Shown here: piece after piece, positions 1 through 12,648 of the stretch
Position numbering within the stretch: the first letter of the stretch is position 1
Layout: every line of letters starts with the position of its first letter
NCBI RefSeq assembly: GCF_030695525.1
Contig: NZ_JAUYSS010000014.1
Span: 1 to 50,335 of the forward strand
Direction of reading: 5' to 3'
DNA: 50,335 nucleotides
Source: Daejeonella sp.
Lineage (GTDB): Bacteria; Bacteroidota; Bacteroidia; Sphingobacteriales; Sphingobacteriaceae
Translations under genes and position numbers: made by a program
The notes under the pieces: generated by a model
Told to the model about the DNA's origin: nothing
Seen by the model: the letters and a program-made list of their open reading frames with translations, nothing else
Database searches by the model: none

Positions 1-87
1 TGAACAAATAAATCTATTTTTATCACACAAGATCAGCACTGAACTGAAAATCTTCGCCAGCAAAATTGGGAAGTCTACGCCAGCCTT

Positions 88-255
88 TTAGGTGGTCAGT
101 TTGCTCCGGTTTAGGGTGGTCAGTTTCACCGGTATTTCCACAGACTTGAGAGCTTTTCCTATTACCGTCAATGCCTTTTGGATCTTTCCCGCAATTATTT
201 CTTTAAGAATGGGTGCTGCTACACTAGTGTAGACTATTTTTTCAATATCTTCCAT
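88..255 (-). pseudogene. Small ORF running into the IS end (55 aa, chimeric)
   Basis: An ATG at 255-253 opens a 55-codon frame beginning MEDIEKIVYTSVAAPILKEI. Its last residues (VKLTTLNRSKLTT) are translated from the tandem IS-end repeats at 91-133, and it stops at 88-90. The first 40 residues have a helical, protein-like composition with no family I recognise. The simplest reading is a resident gene cut by the insertion, with the frame continuing by chance into IS sequence. It could also be an intact small ORF. Confidence 0.35.
91..133. repeat. Tandem GGTGGTCAGTTT repeats, probable IS21-family end
   Basis: The 12-mer GGTGGTCAGTTT occurs at 91-102 and 115-126, 24 bp apart. Each copy is followed by a CCGGT-type box. 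Tandem repeats at the ends are typical of IS21-family elements, and this motif resembles Bacteroidota IS21 ends as I remember them; no database was consulted. The body of the element would lie to the left, outside the window. On the minus strand the first 88 bases encode a short open tail ending at a TGA near position 21, which may belong to the element. Confidence 0.4.
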
Positions 256-359
256 AAAATGATTATCATTAATTGCAACAAGTGTTTTTTAGATTAACCA
301 TGAATATAATTATTTAATTTATAGAATTTGGAATTTTACGGGCAACTTGTTGTACCGGT

Positions 360-965
360 AGTTGACGCGAACATGCATCCACAAAGAATTTTAATCGTAG
401 CGACCTCCCGCGACTGAACGAAGGTCACTGGAGGAAAACTCGCAGAGTGATCCAGTGATATGTTTTCCCTTCAGAAAACACGAGGCTTGGCGGAATTATT
501 GAAACAAATGGAATTGTGGTTGGATGGTCAATAATTGTGACAAGCTGAAGCCTGAGTGATTCGCAGGTCGCAATGCTATTGAAGCGTGAAGACATAACAG
601 GATTTGGCGAAGCCATCGTGTTCTAGATTCAGGAGCTTCTACGAACAGCGTCGCTTGCCGAAAGCAAAGTGAATGACAGACTGCGAAGGGTGAGGCTTGC
701 CCTGGTTGATTAAACCAAGGCAACAGGGTTGGAGCATAGCGCATTCATTTGTAGCGAAGCACTAATGGAAAGCGTGGTCTGGCGTGAGCATTGCCGGCTT
801 AGTAGCAGTGAGTTCCGATCTTCGTGCGTCTGACGTACATAACCCACTGAACCCTCATCAAGGCACTTGCGAGCATTGGCTTTTAAAAGAAACACTGAAG
901 AACATACCTTCCAACACTTCAGACCAAGCCATCACATTCTCCCTGTAAGCCACTAGAGAGGATGG
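360..965. other. Gene-free, densely structured region (candidate large ncRNA or ssDNA structure)
   Basis: About 600 bp contain no convincing gene but at least ten local inverted repeats. They are: 427-432/451-456, 461-467/474-480, 483-488/548-553 enclosing 494-502/528-536, 605-608/612-615, 655-658/664-667, 697-707/713-723 with one internal mismatch, 746-767, 806-814/841-849 enclosing 824-829/833-838, and 895-900/917-922. Two hairpins carry the heptamer GCGAAGC (607-613, 754-760), known as an unusually stable DNA mini-hairpin. Overlapping ORFs of 60-94 codons are low-complexity shadows. This could be a structured RNA, an origin of replication or transfer, or a recombination site. The strand is unknown. 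Confidence 0.5.
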
Positions 966-990
966 GAATGGGTTGGGATGAATTAAAAAA

Positions 991-1009
991 GGGCAGTTGT
1001 TAGCTGCCC
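991..1009 (-). terminator. Hairpin terminator overlapping a stop codon
   Basis: GGGCAG (991-996) pairs with CTGCCC (1004-1009) across a 7-nt loop. On the minus strand the hairpin is followed by TTTTTTAATT, so it is a rho-independent terminator for the gene at 1000-1284. The stop codon of that gene lies inside the stem-loop. Confidence 0.75.
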
Positions 1010-1284
1010 TTATAACTTGGATTCTCATCGTACCACTTCGTAAGTTCCGAAAGAACTAGCAATTCATTTCCAGTTAAATCTTCACGCTTTTTGGAACTCA
1101 GCTCTGCTAGCACTTCATTGGAAGGCTTACTGAACATGATTTCTTCTAATGTACGATCACCTTCTGCTAAACGTCGGTATGGTCTCTCAATAATCTCAAA
1201 AGTTGAAACCAATTGTTTCTTGCGTTTACGAAAAATGAGGTAAAAGATTGCCAGGAATATGATTATAATTATAAAAATCTCCAT
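1000..1284 (-). CDS. Small single-pass membrane protein (94 aa), unknown function
   Basis: The protein begins with an isoleucine-rich membrane segment at about residues 2-18, followed by a basic stop-transfer stretch (RKRKKQ). That predicts an N-out, cytoplasmic C-terminal domain of about 70 residues that is charged and helical. I recognise no family. It is the last gene of the minus-strand series in the accessory segment and is followed at once by a terminator hairpin that overlaps its stop codon. The gene upstream (1337-2053) has its own terminator between them, so it may have its own promoter. Confidence 0.6.
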   Translation of the reverse strand: MEIFIIIIIFLAIFYLIFRKRKKQLVSTFEIIERPYRRLAEGDRTLEEIMFSKPSNEVLAELSSKKREDLTGNELLVLSELTKWYDENPSYKGS

Positions 1285-1302
1285 TCAAATTGATTTTAAA
1301 TG

Positions 1303-1329
1303 AACAAGGCAGTTGTTCGCTGCCTTGTT
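1303..1329 (-). terminator. Hairpin terminator after the lipoprotein gene
   Basis: AACAAGGCAG (1303-1312) pairs perfectly with CTGCCTTGTT (1320-1329) across a 7-nt loop. It lies just past the stop codon at 1337. Its core (GGCAGTTGTT, then GCTGCC) resembles the terminator at 991-1009, so the two may be related by duplication. Confidence 0.7.
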
Positions 1330-1336
1330 ATGTTAA

Positions 1337-2053
1337 TTACTTGCACATATACATTATAAGGTAAGGATTTGAATCACTACGCTTTACAGAAGTGATATTT
1401 CCATTCACATCTTTTGTATAGGTAAAACTCACTGAAGTGCCTAGTTCAGTCACCTTAGATACTAAGTTCTTAGATTGCTTTCCAAAGTATTTATCCACCT
1501 TGTATCGACTAAAGATGAACGGTTTCTCCATTGGAATACCAATCTCTGCAATGTTTGAGGCAAGTTCGGTTGAATGTTCAACTGTAATTGTAGGGTGATT
1601 GCTGAGCTTTCCGCTGCTATTCTTGGTTCCTTCGATTTTAGTTAGATTACCACCAGTATAAGAATAGGTATAAGTATGTACCTCACCTCCACTAAACATA
1701 ACAGCTTTACTCATGTAGCCATCCATATCATAGCTGAACTCATAGTTTGTAGTAGTGCTGCTTACTGTCGTAGCTTCAGTTACTCTACCATTTACCAATA
1801 TGAGCTTTATGTTGGGAATTTTGTTTGAACCAAGTATCGTTATCATGTCTTTACTGTAGGTGATGTTTACACCTGCCGGATCAGCACTATTTGATATATT
1901 GATCAGTCTTCCTTCTGCATCATACTTATGATTTTCATTAGCTGCTATTGATATCTGACAGGTCTTTCCTTCTACGGAAGGTTCTTCATTGGATTTGCCA
2001 CAGCTTAAGAAGATAAGGGCAATTGATAATGCTAATAATAGTGCATGTTTCAT
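1337..2053 (-). CDS. Putative lipoprotein with YD/RHS-like beta repeats (238 aa)
   Basis: The N-terminus is a lipoprotein signal peptide with a lipobox ending LIFLSC at about residue 18, so the mature protein should be anchored to a membrane by a lipidated cysteine. The rest consists of short beta-strand segments with motifs such as YDAEGRLINI, YDMDGYMSK and YTKDVNGNITSV, which resemble the single repeats of Bacteroidota lipoproteins related to the DUF4595/RHS-repeat type. That assignment is by motif only. It lies in the accessory segment between two small membrane-protein genes. Such proteins are often surface-exposed; any role in the element is unknown. Confidence 0.65.
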   Translation of the reverse strand: MKHALLLALSIALIFLSCGKSNEEPSVEGKTCQISIAANENHKYDAEGRLINISNSADPAGVNITYSKDMITILGSNKIPNIKLILVNGRVTEATTVSSTTTNYEFSYDMDGYMSKAVMFSGGEVHTYTYSYTGGNLTKIEGTKNSSGKLSNHPTITVEHSTELASNIAEIGIPMEKPFIFSRYKVDKYFGKQSKNLVSKVTELGTSVSFTYTKDVNGNITSVKRSDSNPYLIMYMCK

Positions 2054-2126
2054 CTTGTTAATTGGGTTTTGAGTTAATAAATGATTTGAGTGTGTTTACT
2101 TTTAAAAGAATATGCTTGAAAAGTGA

Positions 2127-2309
2127 TTAGCCAAAGCAAGCTTTGAACAAGAAGAGCATTAACATCAGTGGCAGGACTATCTTAACGATAATTCCAAAGA
2201 ATACTGCTCCACCAGTCACCGCACCTTCAATTGCTCCTTCTTTGCTGTCAGTCATAAAATAGGCTACTAAGCCACCTATGACTATAAATAATATTAGAAA
2301 TCCGATCAT
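2127..2309 (-). CDS. Small glycine-rich membrane protein (60 aa)
   Basis: The protein has two hydrophobic segments (about residues 2-18 and 37-57). They flank a short polar turn and a glycine-rich GAIEGAVTGGAVFFG stretch, like the packing faces of small membrane-active proteins. No cysteine motif or known family is visible. It lies between the lipoprotein gene (1337-2053) and an unassigned gene (2345-2761), all on the minus strand. Holin-like or membrane-pore roles are possible from size and shape alone, but nothing else supports them. Confidence 0.55.
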   Translation of the reverse strand: MIGFLILFIVIGGLVAYFMTDSKEGAIEGAVTGGAVFFGIIVKIVLPLMLMLFLFKACFG

Positions 2310-2344
2310 GCTTATATATCGTTTGTGTGAGTTGATTTTCTGCC

Positions 2345-2761
2345 TTATTTAAGTAGTGTTGCGACTTTTTTCTTATTCGCTTTCTGTAGCTGATGGGAGT
2401 ACATGATGTGTCCTGTTTCTCTGATTAGCACATAACATAATGGATTCTCATAAGCAGTTAACATTCCGTATATGAAGGTTAGAATGATTTCAAGAGTTGC
2501 AGGCTCTTTAAACCGAGAGGGAAAGGTGTAAATCTTTTGTAAAGCAGCTTTACAGTCAAGAGGATAGTTATTCATTCCATTACATATTTGATCACCCAAT
2601 ACTTCAACTGCTGCTCTTGTCTTATCCAGAAGGGTATTATCGGTAAAATTCAGAAATGGATCTTTCTCGATTTCTTTTAGGAAATTATTAATAATTGAGA
2701 TTGAAGTGATGATATCTGCAGCGATTCGATTAACTCGCTCAGGATTTAGAGTAGTGGACAT
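2345..2761 (-). CDS. Hypothetical protein (138 aa) of the accessory segment
   Basis: A soluble, mostly helical protein beginning MSTTLNPERVNRIAADIITS, with no signal peptide or membrane segment. I recognise no catalytic motif. Cysteines are scattered (ICNG, DCKAAL, LCYV) and do not form a metal-binding pattern. Its start lies next to the structured gene-free patch at 2790-2990, which would be its 5' leader if transcription begins upstream. The codon use and AT-rich composition match the other genes of the segment. Confidence 0.55.
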   Translation of the reverse strand: MSTTLNPERVNRIAADIITSISIINNFLKEIEKDPFLNFTDNTLLDKTRAAVEVLGDQICNGMNNYPLDCKAALQKIYTFPSRFKEPATLEIILTFIYGMLTAYENPLCYVLIRETGHIMYSHQLQKANKKKVATLLK

Positions 2762-2789
2762 TTGTTACTGTGTAGATTACCGAATAGTC

Positions 2790-2990
2790 CCACATCGGTT
2801 GGTTAGTAAACACAAATAGCGCAGGGAACTGAACCAATCCGCACTCAGAGGTTCCTAGGAGGACCCATTGCAACGGACGGCCCAGCACCTACGCTATTAT
2901 GCGCAGGCGTTGGATCAATCCGTTCTTGTTGCAATTTGAAATTTTCCTAGGATTCCTGGGTGCAAGAACTGATAGCTAACGCTATATTTT
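2790..2990. other. Structured gene-free patch with nested palindromes
   Basis: No gene is seen between 2762 and 3069. TCCTAGGA occurs at 2853-2860 and 2945-2952 and, being self-complementary, the two can pair. Nested inside, TTGCAAC (2868-2874) pairs with GTTGCAA (2928-2934). AATAGCG (2815-2821) is complementary to CGCTATT (2892-2898), and that helix would cross the others, giving a pseudoknot or an alternative fold. CAATCCG is repeated directly at 2835 and 2916, and ATAGC/GCTAT form a small hairpin at 2972-2985. It could be a leader RNA of the gene at 2345-2761, a small RNA, or a recombination site. Confidence 0.4.
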
Positions 2991-3069
2991 TAATAATTTA
3001 TGATGGTATTACTGTCTGTTTCTTAAAATGATGTCTATTTCCCCGAAATTAAGAAGAATAATTATCAAT

Positions 3070-3558
3070 CTAAAGAACAAAGACAGAACGAGGGTTATCA
3101 CTGCTCACCACAGCAAAATATCGAATCAAATCTAAATTGCTTCGCTCTCTCATATACTGCAACAATCCATCCTTCTTAAGTAACTCTCTGATCTGAGTTT
3201 CAACTGGGCAATTGTTAAATCCAAATTCAATCCACGCTTTTTTGTCAAACTCACAGATGAGATTGAAGCAAAGGTTAGGTGTGACGAAATCATGAATTGC
3301 TTCACAGCAAGTCCGGTCACCCTTTCTGTCCTTTTCATAAACTGTTTTTTCCCAAGGATCAGCATGATCAATTAACAGTTGTTTGATAGTATTCAAAATC
3401 CTGAAGTAAGCACCCTCAACAATTTCTAATCTCATTTCTTTTAATGGTTCGCCACAGGATTTGACTCTTTGGAAATTCTTTCTCAAGATACCTCTGAAGG
3501 TTAATGGTGGTGCTTCAGATATCTGGATCTTTGGCTGGTATAATGTCTCTTTTGCCAT
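3070..3558 (-). CDS. Hypothetical protein (162 aa) of the accessory segment
   Basis: A soluble protein beginning MAKETLYQPKIQISEAPPLT. It has four cysteines near the middle (TCCEAIHDF, NLCFNLICEF) and a further CPVETQ, but no spacing that I recognise as a zinc finger. No membrane segment, signal peptide or known catalytic motif is visible. Its initiation codon lies 26 bp downstream of the hairpin that ends the preceding gene (3614-4087). The function is unknown; linkage suggests it belongs to the same mobile element. Confidence 0.55.
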   Translation of the reverse strand: MAKETLYQPKIQISEAPPLTFRGILRKNFQRVKSCGEPLKEMRLEIVEGAYFRILNTIKQLLIDHADPWEKTVYEKDRKGDRTCCEAIHDFVTPNLCFNLICEFDKKAWIEFGFNNCPVETQIRELLKKDGLLQYMRERSNLDLIRYFAVVSSDNPRSVFVL

Positions 3559-4690: not shown

Positions 4691-6523
4691 TTATTCTAAT
4701 ACGTTTACATCCAACGAATAAGCTTCTATAATGATTCCAGATTGCCTAACACCTTTAACAGTCCTTCGGACATGTTTGAGCTTGAATCGTCCTTCAGAAC
4801 CTAAATCCGAAGGATGTGCCTTCTTTATCTCACTTGTTTTAGGATCTTTGATCCCCAATTTTTTATAGAATTCGTTTAGCTTCGATGTTATGTGAGCATT
4901 TGTGTAAAAAGTATCTTTTTTAAAAGCACCTTTACATAGCTTTAGGAATTTAATTTCAGCCGATCCATTTTCTCTTATGATAACCTCACGCTGAACTTTC
5001 TTCACATTATATTTTCGATCAGACATTTCTTGATCATTCATTAAAAGGAAGGCTTGATAGGCAAGAGGGTTGCTTTCTTTGATTAATTCCGTTTTCCCTT
5101 TCCCAAATGTGAACATTAACGACCCAGAAGTCTGACTTTGCAGTAGTTTTAATTCTTTATAATCTTCTTCCAGTATTTTAGCCGCTGACTTTCTTTCCTG
5201 TTCAGTTTTTGAAACCAGTTTTAGATCAGAATATTGAACCTCGACATCATAATATGCTGCTTCCCAATCCTCCTTAATGAACTTGATACTTTTATAAATC
5301 TCATTACTAGCCGACTCATTAATCTGCTGATCTAGTTTATAGAGATTTAATGTAGCCAATTTTGTTTTCTGATCTACATCCGCAAACTTCTCTGCTCTGT
5401 TATCACCTTTGAATTTATCGAATTCAGCATTCAGTATATGTTCATTGTTACTTTTAATAATTCTTAAAGCATCGCTTGTATATCCGGCTTTGTACTGTTC
5501 AAGAGATATTTTAGTATCCTTGTGCTCATGGTTACTTATATGTATAATTTGAAATGGTTCATTTCGTAATCTTCCAATAGCCTGTTTACCCTTACTGGCA
5601 ACTCCAACCTTAGTATGTTCTTTATGGCAGTCTGTAACTAGCACCATTGTAGCACCCTTATCGTAAAGATCCCAACCCTCGAAATATTTGCAGGTATAGA
5701 AGTTGATTTTCTTATATAATCCCTTTCGTGGTTCTGCTATGAAATGCTTTTGGAGATCCCCTAATTTTTGCATGTTTTGGCTATCCTTATCATCAGCACA
5801 GAATATATTGCATTCCTCGAGTTCTGATTGTAATACAGCTCTTTTAATTTCAGTCACTGAATTATAGAAGATGTGAATATTGCCTGGGAATTCGTTTCTA
5901 TTGGCTATTAGATACTCCAGAGTTGCAGTAACACTTACTGCATTGACAAGAGTTACCTTTCCAAGCTTCTCAGTAAATTTAATTTCATGATAATCCAAGG
6001 ATTTAAATCTAGGATCTGAAAAGAAATAGGGAGTAGCAGAGATGATAGATTTGTTATTGAAATCCCAAAAAAATTCGAATGGTGCTAATATATTTATTCG
6101 ATATAGCTCTGAGATAAATGTATGCGATTCGTCAAGAAGCAAGAACCAATTAGCTTTTATATGTTCTGCTTGTGATTTTGAAGCTAACCTCATAATGCGT
6201 TTCATCCCTTCAGGAGTAGACATAATCTTTATACCAACTTTATCATCGTTAAGAATCGATGAGATTTCAGAATCGCCAATATTTCCATACACAATGTAAT
6301 CGGGTCTATCCGAGATTCTTTCTGAGGTATATTTGCCTAGAATGATACTGATATTGGGTACTATTATCAATGTAGTTCTAGTCTTCTTTTCCAGTTCAAT
6401 TGATGTGCCTCGTATTGCACACCTTCCTTTGTGAATAAACGCATTGACTGGAAGTCCATCTCTGAATATATCGGACATGAATGTGTCTGTAGTTACCGTA
6501 TAATTAGTAGTTGTTTTAAACAT
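4691..6523 (-). CDS. DExH helicase-like protein with a non-canonical P-loop (610 aa)
   Basis: Several superfamily 2 helicase motifs can be read in order. LLLDESHT at residues 128-135 is the Walker B (DExH) motif. SATP at 162-165 is motif III. QAIGRLR at 314-320 is motif VI, with the arginine finger. The expected Walker A lysine-threonine is not seen: the matching place (residues 31-41) reads HKGRCAIRGTS, followed by a normal strand LIIVPN. Similar degenerate P-loops (GxGGTT) occur, as I recall, in helicase-like proteins of Bacteroidota mobile elements. The C-terminal 270 residues are charged and unassigned. It may act in element replication or transfer, or in defence. Confidence 0.7.
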   Translation of the reverse strand: MFKTTTNYTVTTDTFMSDIFRDGLPVNAFIHKGRCAIRGTSIELEKKTRTTLIIVPNISIILGKYTSERISDRPDYIVYGNIGDSEISSILNDDKVGIKIMSTPEGMKRIMRLASKSQAEHIKANWFLLLDESHTFISELYRINILAPFEFFWDFNNKSIISATPYFFSDPRFKSLDYHEIKFTEKLGKVTLVNAVSVTATLEYLIANRNEFPGNIHIFYNSVTEIKRAVLQSELEECNIFCADDKDSQNMQKLGDLQKHFIAEPRKGLYKKINFYTCKYFEGWDLYDKGATMVLVTDCHKEHTKVGVASKGKQAIGRLRNEPFQIIHISNHEHKDTKISLEQYKAGYTSDALRIIKSNNEHILNAEFDKFKGDNRAEKFADVDQKTKLATLNLYKLDQQINESASNEIYKSIKFIKEDWEAAYYDVEVQYSDLKLVSKTEQERKSAAKILEEDYKELKLLQSQTSGSLMFTFGKGKTELIKESNPLAYQAFLLMNDQEMSDRKYNVKKVQREVIIRENGSAEIKFLKLCKGAFKKDTFYTNAHITSKLNEFYKKLGIKDPKTSEIKKAHPSDLGSEGRFKLKHVRRTVKGVRQSGIIIEAYSLDVNVLE

Positions 6524-6577: not shown

Positions 6578-7021
6578 TTAATTTTCAGATTCAGTTCGCA
6601 CAGTCATGCTATCACCATCCTCGATCCTGGTGGCCTCCTCTAATAATTGTTGATGAGTAAAACGAATGCTCACTTGAGCTGTTTGATATTTCTGGAAGAA
6701 CTCAACCATCCTATCTGAAAGTAAGATAACTTTGTGCTGTTCAACTCCACGAGGAAGTTCAAACTCGATCCATAAATACTCCTTCTCATCCTTATCCAGA
6801 CCCGGTACAAGGATTCCTTTAATCTTTGTACCAGATCGAAGCCGATCCCAGAGAGCAGCTTCTTTCTGTCTCCGTTTCGGAGACATTGGTACGGTATAGT
6901 CTAACAGTAAAGTAGCACTGAATATACCTCTTTCAGGATTAGTTTCTAAAAACATATCCTTTGCATTGTAGACTGAATCCGAGCCTTGCTCAGATGTCAG
7001 TCGATTATTAGATTTTTGCAT
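6578..7021 (-). CDS. Hypothetical protein (147 aa) of the accessory segment
   Basis: A soluble alpha/beta protein beginning MQKSNNRLTSEQGSDSVYNA, with a basic patch (SPKRRQKEAALWDRLRSG) in the middle and an acidic C-terminus. I recognise no domain. It sits between the unassigned gene at 7069-8004 and the helicase-like gene, in the position where replication accessory or regulatory proteins are often found in integrative elements. A strong terminator follows it, so co-transcription with the helicase would need read-through. Confidence 0.55.
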   Translation of the reverse strand: MQKSNNRLTSEQGSDSVYNAKDMFLETNPERGIFSATLLLDYTVPMSPKRRQKEAALWDRLRSGTKIKGILVPGLDKDEKEYLWIEFELPRGVEQHKVILLSDRMVEFFQKYQTAQVSIRFTHQQLLEEATRIEDGDSMTVRTESEN

Positions 7022-7068: not shown

Positions 7069-8004
7069 TTATCTTATCGGATTGATAAACAATAGCTTAC
7101 GCTTATTTACTTTGCGAAGCAGCATTTTATCTAATGCATCCTTTTCATTTGCTGTTGGCTTTTCCGAGTGAAATTTATAGGGCAGTCTGGATTCTCTGGT
7201 TTGTAGACCCGTAAGGAAGAGTACATCAATGACAAAACCTAATTGATCGTAAGACCAATATTTATCAGATGTTTGTTTGATTGAGGTTTGATTCTGGAGG
7301 TAATTAATTATAGGTATTGCTATTGAAAGGATAGCTCCTTCTATAATAGCTTTTTCAGTTAATTTAATAAATGACTCTGTTGGTGCAGACAGAACGAATT
7401 TTTTTACTTCTCCGTCAGGAATTATAGATGAACTAATTAATTGCAAACCCAGTGACATTGGGAATTGACCCTTCTCAATTGCTTCAACAATAAGGTTTTT
7501 AATCCAGTCAGTAGTTTCTTTGTGAGTGAATTTAAATCGAACAGGCTTTCGTCGACTCTTAATAGGCTTAAGAAGATAATCAGACTCAATGTTTCCAACT
7601 TTCTCTTCAAACGTTATTGTGAAGTGGGAATTAATATTTGCTGCCAAAGCAGATATATTAGTATCAAATTCTTTTATGCGTTCCGTGCTCTCTCTTCCTG
7701 GTCGTTCTATGCCATTTACTCTTTGCATCGTATTAGAGTAAGTATAACTAATAATGAAAAATAGGTTGTTAATGTGCTCCTTAAGCTCATATTTATTAAT
7801 GATCTTTTCTAAATTACTACAATAACTTCTTCCTTTCTCCTGAGTTAAGAATGGAATGGATACTTTTCCAACAGATTTATACAATCTCACTTCTTTGTTA
7901 AATTCACCCTGACTCATGTTCGGAAATAGGTAAGGTTTAATAATTTTAAAGTCGGGCATGACATTGATCCATACTTCACCCAGTCTGTTAGTTTCGTTAT
8001 TCAT
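7069..8004 (-). CDS. Hypothetical protein (311 aa) next to the recombinase
   Basis: A soluble, largely helical protein with basic clusters (KSRRKPVRFKFTHKE near the middle, RKVNKRKLLF at the C-terminus) that could bind nucleic acid. No known motif is visible. It lies 80 bp downstream of the tyrosine recombinase gene on the same strand. The same composition and strand suggest it belongs to the element. I cannot propose a function. Confidence 0.55.
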   Translation of the reverse strand: MNNETNRLGEVWINVMPDFKIIKPYLFPNMSQGEFNKEVRLYKSVGKVSIPFLTQEKGRSYCSNLEKIINKYELKEHINNLFFIISYTYSNTMQRVNGIERPGRESTERIKEFDTNISALAANINSHFTITFEEKVGNIESDYLLKPIKSRRKPVRFKFTHKETTDWIKNLIVEAIEKGQFPMSLGLQLISSSIIPDGEVKKFVLSAPTESFIKLTEKAIIEGAILSIAIPIINYLQNQTSIKQTSDKYWSYDQLGFVIDVLFLTGLQTRESRLPYKFHSEKPTANEKDALDKMLLRKVNKRKLLFINPIR

Positions 8005-8084: not shown

Positions 8085-9326
8085 TTAAGATTCTAAAATA
8101 CTGAGAATGGAATCTTGTACTTTTTCATTCAATTCATCAATCACACTCTGCTCAAAGTTGTCCAGATAAATGTTGGTGATTTTGTTTCCGTATTCATGTC
8201 CCATTGCTTCAGCAATCAATTCATTTGAATAGCCTAATCGTTTTGCAGTAGTTGCCCAGCTATGTCGTGCAACGTAGGTAGTTATCGTTTCATTAATCTC
8301 GCATTGTTTTGCCAGCTCCTTCATCCACTTATTTGTCGTTTTAATCCACTGGTGTATTCTCTGATTTGCAATTAAAGAATCTTCGATTACAGAAACCGGT
8401 AGGATTGGCAATAGATACTTCTCATTTCTTCCCTTGTATTCATTGATAATTCGATGTGCTAATGCAGTTAATTTGATGCTGTATTCCTTCCTTGTTTTCC
8501 TCCTTCGGTAAACTATTCTTCCTTTTATGATATTAGATGGCTTGAGATAAGCAAGATCCGTGAACGAAACACCGATAAGTGAAAAGCTGAGGAAAAAGTA
8601 GTTCCTTGCATGCCATTCCCTTGTATTCTCTTTTAATTCATGTCGGTAAATCTTACCAAGGTCATTAGCTAATATTGCTCTCTTTGCTGTTCTTTCGGAC
8701 TTAATTGGGACCTCAGTAAAAGGATAATAGGATCTGTCGATGATCTTAGCCTTTATAGCTCGATTATAAATAGCTCTTATGGTTCTGAGGTAGTTACCAA
8801 TTGAATTCTGTTTAACACCTTTTGTTATGAGATGCCTTTGAAATGCCTCCAGAAACGTATAGTCTATCTCTTTGAATTTCAAATTTCTATTATTTCCGAA
8901 TCCAATCAATCTGTTTGAAGCAGTCTGATATACTAATGCGTTACCTACTTTATTGATTGCGAATAACTCATTTATAATCTGAGTTGAAAATTCATTAAAT
9001 GTGATGTTGGTGTTTATTTTATAAGGGTTAGCCTTTTCATCTAGGCTCTCTTTTAGAGTTGTAAATGAGAATTCACCTATATCATCTAATTGATGGATAG
9101 CCTTTTGAATCTTTAAATAGAATTCAGAAATCGTTTTATTTAGTAGCTGGAAGTTTGGATTTGACTTGTTGACTAACTGCGATTCTGAATCCCAGTGCTC
9201 TTTTTTAACTCGTATACCAGTTGTTAATGTAGTGTTGTTCTTGTTAAAAGTAACCCGGACAACAATCGGGTAAGTTTTCTCTTTTGTTTCTCTCTTATCG
9301 TTGAGAGTAAGTTTGTAATAGACCAT
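8085..9326 (-). CDS. Tyrosine recombinase / site-specific integrase (413 aa)
   Basis: It carries the three-part layout of Bacteroidota phage-type integrases: an N-terminal arm-binding domain (residues 1-100), a SAM-like core-binding domain (about 105-205) and a C-terminal catalytic domain. Catalytic boxes seen are TTYVARHSWAT at about residue 349 (box II arginine), MGHE about 25 residues later, and NIYLDNF with the nucleophilic tyrosine near 387. The length is normal for the family. It probably catalyses excision and integration of the segment to its left. It lies 270 bp from a tRNA-Val gene, a common target for such enzymes, and four iterated 9-mers lie directly upstream. No second attachment site was found in the window. 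Confidence 0.92.
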   Translation of the reverse strand: MVYYKLTLNDKRETKEKTYPIVVRVTFNKNNTTLTTGIRVKKEHWDSESQLVNKSNPNFQLLNKTISEFYLKIQKAIHQLDDIGEFSFTTLKESLDEKANPYKINTNITFNEFSTQIINELFAINKVGNALVYQTASNRLIGFGNNRNLKFKEIDYTFLEAFQRHLITKGVKQNSIGNYLRTIRAIYNRAIKAKIIDRSYYPFTEVPIKSERTAKRAILANDLGKIYRHELKENTREWHARNYFFLSFSLIGVSFTDLAYLKPSNIIKGRIVYRRRKTRKEYSIKLTALAHRIINEYKGRNEKYLLPILPVSVIEDSLIANQRIHQWIKTTNKWMKELAKQCEINETITTYVARHSWATTAKRLGYSNELIAEAMGHEYGNKITNIYLDNFEQSVIDELNEKVQDSILSILES

Positions 9327-9599: not shown

Positions 9600-9674
9600 G
9601 GGAGATTAGCTCAGCTGGTTCAGAGCACCTGCCTTACAAGCAGGGGGTCACTGGTTCGAACCCAGTATCTCCCA
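9600..9674 (+). tRNA. tRNA-Val (anticodon UAC)
   Basis: A complete cloverleaf folds. The acceptor stem is GGGAGAT (9600-9606) with ATCTCCC (9667-9673) and discriminator A at 9674. The D stem is GCTC/GAGC, the anticodon stem CCTGC/GCAGG, and the T stem ACTGG/CCAGT around TTCGAAC. The anticodon loop CTTACAA gives anticodon TAC, which reads valine codons. CCA is not encoded. A promoter lies directly upstream and a terminator 70 bp downstream. It is a likely integration target for the neighbouring recombinase. Confidence 0.97.
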
Positions 9675-9743
9675 CATCGGCCGCCGAAGCCTTAGCGAAG
9701 GAGGCCATCGGCCCACCTACCATGAGTAGAAGGTCTAAGAAAC

Positions 9744-12125: not shown

Positions 12126-12648
12126 TCTAATTCGACATTCCAATTGGCATCAAATGTGGCATTTCCTTCTTTAGCTCCTTTCTTCTGTAAGTATTACTTA
12201 GAAATTGGAAATGAGTATGAAGCGAAACAAATCAGCGAATAGCCTAAATTCACAAAATACAGCACCGGGTAGGATCGCTGTGAAGACTCTTTTTTATCTA
12301 ACAATCCGAATAGACCGCTATGCTTAACTCTGCAGATTGGTTTCTGGCTTGAATGTAAAGCCGTAGTAGTTGTTACCGCTAAGACCTTTGTCGATTTGCC
12401 TGATAATCCTTAGAAGAATCCAGTTCACTTTACTCTTAGTATAAATACTTACTTTCTGATGTCATCAGGGATTTTAAAAATTACAGTTCAGTAGCATTTA
12501 GTGATACAATTAGAAGCAATCCAAAAGAAAGCGTATAAACTATACAACAGCGAATTACCAGCACCGGGCATTGCAGTATCATTTCACCATCTAGCCCTTA
12601 ACTTTATATAATTCCTTCTCCTTTTATGCGCCACCTCTATTAAACCCG
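12126..12648. other. Gene graveyard: short broken coding remnants
   Basis: No intact gene is visible, but short stretches read like protein. On the plus strand a frame from 12211 to 12327 encodes 38 residues including NTAPGRIAV. A frame ending near 12611 encodes AYKLYNSELPAPGIAVSFHH. On the minus strand a frame near 12320-12450 reads IIRQIDKGLSGNNYYGFTF and stops at TAA. The frames are broken by stops and shifts, so these look like decayed genes. The APG-IAV motif appears in both plus-strand pieces. Confidence 0.4.

Follow-up and report, generated by a model that had tools for sequence, protein, structure and literature searches.

A conserved, folded non-coding element of integrative islands in Bacteroidota

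In this study, we describe a structured non-coding element of integrative islands, named here element A, in a contig of Daejeonella sp. (the window: the whole stretch of 50,335 nucleotides that was analysed). Judged by its sequence and its relatives, element A is a member of a family of mobile-island elements in Bacteroidota, and no catalogued family matched it. It recurs in integrative islands that carry a tyrosine integrase, an SF2-type helicase, RadC, and cargo genes. Compensatory base changes indicate that its fold is kept by selection. The type of its hairpin loops, together with the lack of a visible promoter, suggests a folded single-stranded DNA (ssDNA) rather than an RNA.

Results

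Position and parts of the element

An earlier note, made from the letters alone, had marked positions 360..965 as a densely folded and gene-free region at the edge of a mobile segment. The feature is real, and it ends slightly further on, at about 979 (Table 1). The stems named there were recovered: 483-488/548-553 and 494-502/528-536 both pair perfectly, 806-814/841-849 pairs except for one A.C mismatch, and 824-838 is self-complementary apart from one G.T. The hairpin heptamer GCGAAGC occurs twice, as described, and the mobile segment is represented by the integrase and the tRNA-Val of Table 1. No gene fits the region: the only listed ORF of at least 80 aa overlapping 400-979 is an 82-aa minus-strand frame (496-744). 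Homologues do not keep the sequence as an ORF either, since a frame of at least 100 aa covering more than 200 of the first 340 bases was present in 3 of 43 copies. ORF content in the window and in these copies ruled out a coding region as the identity of 400-979.

We infer that the + strand is the one that folds. The closing stem of the 5' domain (helix 1) is poorly aligned in alignment A6, with 66.4% paired. The internal motif TTGGCG / GTGACAA of the long hairpin is near-invariant, and the same motif appears in reversed order in helix 675-681/777-783. The optional 3' domain gave a distinct match to a simple rule in 20 of 68 copies, at least one of which (locus L092) looks spurious.

Table 1. 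Coordinates of element A, its parts, and neighbouring features in the window
Feature	Position	Strand	Basis or remark
Element A, whole (about 580 nt)	400..979	+	Homologue searches and alignment; boundaries judged by eye
5' domain of element A	400..571	+	Models R1 and R2; compensatory changes
Closing stem of 5' domain	400-405 (GCGACC) with 566-571 (GGTCGC)	+	Judged by eye from alignment
Stem 425-432/451-458 with C(GCA)G mini-hairpin 438-448	425..458	+	Helices 3 and 4, compensatory changes
Long hairpin 485-502/528-545	485..545	+	Helix 5, compensatory changes
Hairpin 581-585/635-639 with GCGAAGC at 607	581..639	+	Alignment, by eye
Helix 675-681 (GACAGAC) with 777-783 (GTCTGGC)	675..783	+	Alignment, by eye; GCGAAGC at 754 inside
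Optional 3' domain, hairpin around loop TAAGC	922..979	+	Simple-rule scan of copies
Structured element B of such islands	2812..2996 (blastn region 2790-3010)	-	Fold z, two-sided changes
Two small proteins, 162 and 157 aa	3070..4087	-	Families in 7 and 13 of 41 loci; no Pfam, NCBIfam or PHROG match
SF2-helicase-like protein, 610 aa	4691..6523	-	Recurring island gene; structure model
147-aa protein	6578..7021	-	Family in 6 of 41 loci; no Pfam, NCBIfam or PHROG match
311-aa protein	7069..8004	-	Family in 4 of 41 loci; nothing above curated cut-off (Pfam, NCBIfam, PHROG)
Tyrosine integrase of island	8085..9326	-	Pfam, PHROG
tRNA-Val, adjoins integrase	9600..9675	+	Rfam tRNA match; possible attachment region

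Folding far beyond chance was not seen in the single sequence, where stems and minimum free energy (MFE) lie near those of shuffles. Perfect stems of at least 6 (loop up to 70) numbered 11 vs 8.5 +- 2.9 in shuffles, with 17 of 100 shuffles reaching 11, and those of at least 7 numbered 4 vs 1.83, matched by 12 of 100. For 355-985, the two strands had MFE z values of -1.58 (+) and -1.75 (-), and 2 of 20 shuffles were equally good in each case. The 5' domain of the window copy taken alone gave z -2.9 with RNA energies and -3.7 with DNA energies (+ strand). The structure of element A is convincing by comparison only, and not from the window sequence alone.

Copies in other genomes

Of 150 genomes searched at the DNA level, 11 had matches; the own genome is among them and holds a second copy (G000:C41). 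Twelve aligned sequences, some of them without the 3' part, have a common architecture from the stem GCGACC/GGTCGC onward, and in the longer copies it extends to the 3' hairpin around TAAGC. A covariance model of the 5' domain (R1) gave 58 matches in 36 of 200 genomes, own one counted, with a maximum of eight per genome and one in the window; two of the 58 span the inner hairpin only. With a broader model (R2), element A was found in 8 members of a phylum-wide set of 395 genomes, again with the own one counted. A degenerate pattern matched 87 stretches of named genomes, many of them from Sphingobacterium, Pedobacter, and Mucilaginibacter. Pattern matches in other phyla were taken for chance, and two Methylomonas stretches had no model match in a scan covering 57 of the 87 stretches.

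The inner hairpin (TTTTGGCG...GTGACAAAA) also recurs alone in intergenic DNA of other Bacteroidota (loci L155, L157, L128, and L114). In L128, it appears about every 300 bases, among other hairpins.

Both contigs that hold element A in its own genome start with GGTGGTCAGTTT-type repeats (window 90-140; L002 1-140). These are perhaps insertion sequence ends where the assembly broke.

Covariation

Compensating base changes, named beforehand as the support to look for, are present in two alignments. An ordinary MAFFT alignment of ten copies presented two-sided changes in 18 of 32 pairs. When 68 distinct copies were fitted to R1, 90.7% of cells paired and 24 of 32 pairs presented two-sided changes. 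The 68-copy alignment contained 400 compensatory cells vs 112.7 +- 12.5 after shuffling (0 of 500 shuffles reach 400), which argues that the fold has been selected; sliding the alignment left 12-68. Element A has the covarying secondary structure expected of a structured non-coding RNA, and covariation does not separate RNA from DNA.

The core pairs, defined as those >70% Watson-Crick (25 of 32), comprised 1573 Watson-Crick cells, 28 G.T, 5 A.C, and 45 others in the 68 copies. The excess of G.T over A.C points to the + strand as the one more likely to fold. Of the seven pairs left out, two are G.T in almost every copy and four belong to the closing stem, where the alignment is poor. Without the model, MAFFT and RNAalifold recovered just 10 pairs from 43 copies, so the full structure depends on model-guided alignment.

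DNA or RNA

We counted loops in perfect stem-4 hairpins of 43 copies, within the 5' domain plus 330 bases. GNA triloops made up 63 of 152 in the element vs 391 of 6442 (6%) in the flanks. Their closing pairs were mostly C-G or T-A (56 of 63: C-G 30, T-A 26, G-C 4, A-T 3), and the complement-type triloop TNC was seen once in the element copies. Among tetraloops, GNRA accounted for 6 of 100 (flanks 203 of 6684) and TNCG for 3 of 100. The C(GNA)G loop is an exceptionally stable DNA mini-hairpin, whereas RNA prefers GNRA and UNCG.

As RNA controls, we used RNase P (GNA 14/63, GNRA 22/118; five of the 30 sequences may be mis-cut) and LSU rRNA. The latter gave GNA 0/6 and GNRA 2/8 in Watson-Crick stems, and GNA 5/46 and GNRA 8/59 when G.U was allowed; an LSU search in the own genome found none, and genome G035 served as the source. 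The RNase P consensus fold (MAFFT + RNAalifold) had 8 pairs only and was used for loop counts alone. GNA loops are not exclusive to element A, but in the RNA controls the GNA-to-GNRA balance is the other way round. The loops are no proof of DNA, because GNA triloops also occur in RNase P.

At the level of folding energy, the 5' domain had a mean z of -3.48 (+) vs -2.72 (-) with DNA parameters, the + strand being better in 35 of 43 copies, and of -2.86 (+) vs -3.01 (-) with RNA parameters, with + better in 18 of 43. RNase P presented no strand preference under either parameter set (12/25 and 13/25), and thus the energy test has little power to recognise RNA. The DNA-energy test probably reads the same loops as the loop count. 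The rarity of G.U was dropped as an argument for DNA, since the pairs had been preselected as >70% Watson-Crick and a poorly aligned RNase P set yielded a similar figure.

For transcription, we scanned the 150 bases upstream of the copies for TTG-N17-23-TAnnTTTG, the full Bacteroidota promoter consensus. On the + strand, which is that of the element, it was present in 0 of 67 copies; with a background of just 1.1%, this is an absence and not a depletion. On the opposite strand, pointing outward, it was present in 6 of 67 vs the same background. The shorter TAnnTTTG was found in 5 of 67 on the element's strand and 16 of 67 on the opposite one (background 9.5%), and TAnnTTT in 34 and 41 of 67 (background 41%). 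Outward promoters are commoner than background, so the 5' flank may serve neighbouring opposite-strand genes. Terminator-like sites were seen in 1 of 66 copies on the + strand and 3 of 66 on the other (background 0.5%).

The earlier note had proposed either a large RNA not yet described or a structure of single-strand DNA. A selected fold with no Rfam match stands, and of the two alternatives ssDNA is favoured, though not proved.

Islands around the element

For the gene survey, we clustered 663 ORFs from 41 loci with 43 element copies. RadC was present in 19 loci, always on the strand opposite to element A (19/19), and its identity has a Pfam match in the two loci tested. The 610-aa helicase was present in 17 loci, in all 17 on the opposite strand and on the 3' side. 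Other recurring families were found in 4 to 13 loci. The integrase family of the window occurs in 7 loci with eight members, six of them opposite to element A; the same-orientation members are one of two in L065 and the single one in L070. Constant orientation counts as few events, because related islands share descent. Within the stretches fetched, none of the seven recurring families was found in 12 of the 41 loci, and other integrases as queries retrieved an integrase-like ORF in 11 of 41.

The structure model of the helicase (pLDDT 77.4) has an SF2-type fold. Its best PDB match is the HSV-1 origin-binding protein (E 1.7e-7, TM 0.40), barely ahead of RecQ and DEAD proteins, and on visual reading its probable Walker A stretch is without the lysine. 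We do not claim it as an origin-binding protein, for which Pfam and sequence profile gave no support.

Islands could be mapped in three other genomes, with one copy of element A each. The island of G047 spans 19.7 kb from one tRNA-Pro gene to another, and an integrase-family gene adjoins one of these. In G157, two tRNA-Arg genes enclose the island (12.7 kb), in which the integrase is followed by proteins of 348 aa and 137 aa, the helicase, cargo, element A, and RadC. In G035, tRNA-Lys is 0.6 kb from element A, and a Pfam integrase is on the far side. The tRNA-Val of the window is a possible attachment region. Overall, a tRNA was found within 1.5 kb upstream of the element in 8 of 59 copies vs about 3.4 expected from tRNA density, a modest excess.

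The cargo of the islands includes a GmrSD-type restriction protein, a subtilase beside an AAA protein (G047), and, by eye, toxin-antitoxin genes. No relaxase was found among the window proteins scanned (Pfam, NCBIfam, PHROG). L070 has a relaxase and a NikA/MobC protein 3' of element A, the sole such case found in the 41 loci by phmmer, within the stretches fetched.

Repeated copies

Among the Bacteroidales, Alkaliflexus imshenetskii carries five copies of a 1.1-kb unit that contains element A. Identity to the first copy is 92-94% for the other four, and the whole set shares one orientation and fits into 27 kb (1195400-1222360 of one contig). Its other eight matches are one 153-base piece inside the cluster and pieces of 37-78 bases. 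R2 recovers all five; these copies had contributed to its construction. Different genes separate the units, among them those for tyrosine recombinases, a Toprim protein, and proteins of AAA type, for which there were two matches, one slightly under its cut-off. The L131 copy diverges from the others near GTGGGGATTTAT, and the two L156 copies have some further sequence in common.

L092 (reverse complement) has two copies 5.7 kb apart, at 4971 and 10720, with 98.2% identity over 385 bases, 127 of these before the 5' domain. They agree through GGGTGACAAA and diverge beyond. Both present the same upstream repeats, TTGTCTCATTT twice, and the first copy is beside a tRNA-Met.

A second structured element

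Element B gave blastn matches in other islands; among those shown are L087/L116, L075, L058, L063, L081, and L057/L133. Judged by their coordinates, these matches have the orientation of element A and follow it on the 3' side at a distance of 2.4-8 kb. The minus-strand RNA fold of element B had z -6.23, and seven copies presented two-sided changes in 18 of 47 predicted pairs.

Window positions 12451-12532 are about 76% similar to DNA in L198 and L199, two of the loci around the Y1 transposase matches of the own genome. This stretch is possibly a REP-like repeat.

Searches of known families

As the earlier note had advised, we searched Rfam, and no match to element A was found among the 4227 families of Rfam 15. 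At the gathering threshold, the whole window contained tRNA only. At E<=5, window 1-3100 gave two sub-threshold matches, both outside element A. In 25 homologous loci, tRNAs were above threshold and two sub-threshold matches lay outside element A. Comparison with 72,556 plasmid records and 50,697 phage records revealed no known origin or element by similarity, and 0 IMG/VR contigs had an exact match to the hairpin pattern. Searches of open-licence literature brought up no account that was recognised as describing element A.

Discussion

With moderate confidence, we suggest that element A is a cis-acting site of an integrative-island family that folds when its strand becomes single-stranded. 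The + strand would be exposed while the excised island is replicated, transferred, or recombined, and would then fold into a multi-hairpin structure. Island or helper proteins could recognise the folded strand, the SF2-type helicase, the integrase, and RadC being candidates, and their recognition would start second-strand synthesis or strand processing. The step served would belong to replication, transfer, or recombination; if a single one is to be named, initiation or conversion of single-stranded island DNA, in an origin-like manner, would be the most likely.

The main rival is that the island transcribes the + strand into a large structured non-coding RNA comparable to GOLLD or ROOL. Length, multi-helix architecture, covariation, and the tie to mobile islands all agree with it, as does the preference for G.T over A.C, and GNA triloops are not absent from a true RNA such as RNase P. 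However, GNA triloops dominate over the GNRA and TNCG tetraloops, RNA energies give no preference for the + strand, Rfam holds no match, and the + strand has next to no terminator-like sites and no full promoter, although a promoter could be further upstream or of another type. On balance, we consider an RNA unlikely.

The boldest reading likens element A to a very large attC, a folded single-strand site where tyrosine recombinases would bring in or swap cargo; here too the step would be conjectural. The five Alkaliflexus units, in one orientation and with different genes between them, including tyrosine recombinases, fit this reading, and so do the L092 copies, which are nearly identical and then differ. 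Besides, 33 of 43 copies have their nearest 5' ORF of at least 100 aa on the opposite strand, so the presumed folding strand is mostly the non-coding strand of that ORF. On the 3' side, however, this holds for 24 of 43 only. The Alkaliflexus and L092 copies part at different places, the single copies in the G035, G047, and G157 islands indicate that long arrays are not the rule, and the window integrase is far below the integron-integrase cut-off (TIGR02249: 23.4 vs 265 bits). An attC-like site is thus quite improbable in our judgement. A dispersed REP-type repeat, moved by an IS200-like (Y1) transposase, would explain why the inner hairpin alone is dispersed in other Bacteroidota, and six Y1_Tnp matches are present in the own genome. 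Nevertheless, the loci around these six (18,639 bases) contain no element A (one match, E 0.79), and a fixed architecture of 350-580 nt with island association does not fit REPs, which leaves this explanation with very little credit.

Returning to element A as a folded ssDNA site, a wider and rather doubtful extension is that islands of Bacteroidota carry unrecorded giant ssDNA sites of 350-1100 bases, on which a tyrosine recombinase and a helicase/primase partner would act in a strand-specific manner. Islands and their cargo might then move through a folded ssDNA intermediate, much like integron cassettes but by way of sites of many times the size. If the DNA reading is true, it would help to explain how such small islands replicate or move. 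Element A is a conserved non-coding part of islands that have a GmrSD-type restriction protein among their cargo, and models R1 and R2 allow finding further such elements. It offers a testable case of evolution keeping a very large fold in DNA rather than in RNA.

Among known systems, GOLLD and ROOL are large ornate RNAs linked to mobile elements. Element A resembles them in size, ornate fold, and mobile-element link, but it has no Rfam match, no promoter found, and DNA-type loops.

Integrative elements have single-strand origins (sso) and transfer origins (oriT). Element A resembles these as a long non-coding DNA rich in hairpins, located in an integrative element that encodes a helicase, and the L070 copy is near a relaxase. 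However, in the island of the window neither a nick site nor a relaxase was found, and the plasmid and phage sets gave no match.

In the attC sites of integrons, one DNA strand folds into imperfect hairpins with conserved mismatches. Element A is several times longer and has one copy in each of the three mapped islands. It shares the one-strand folding and the imperfect hairpins with their conserved mismatches, and it has tyrosine recombinases nearby and one-orientation repeats in Alkaliflexus.

From the same bacterial family as element A, PMC2864571 describes the Pedo-repair motif (RF01715) of Pedobacter, a structured motif of 211 positions. Its model matched no element A copy: the one match in 100 genomes (E 0.141) lay elsewhere, and 0 of 25 element loci had any. 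Element A gave no Rfam match as the STAXI motif either. STAXI is found near integrases, as element A is, and its authors likewise weighed ssDNA against RNA by loop type (PMC2864571). There, UUCG loops spoke for RNA (PMC2864571), whereas the GNA loops of element A speak for DNA.
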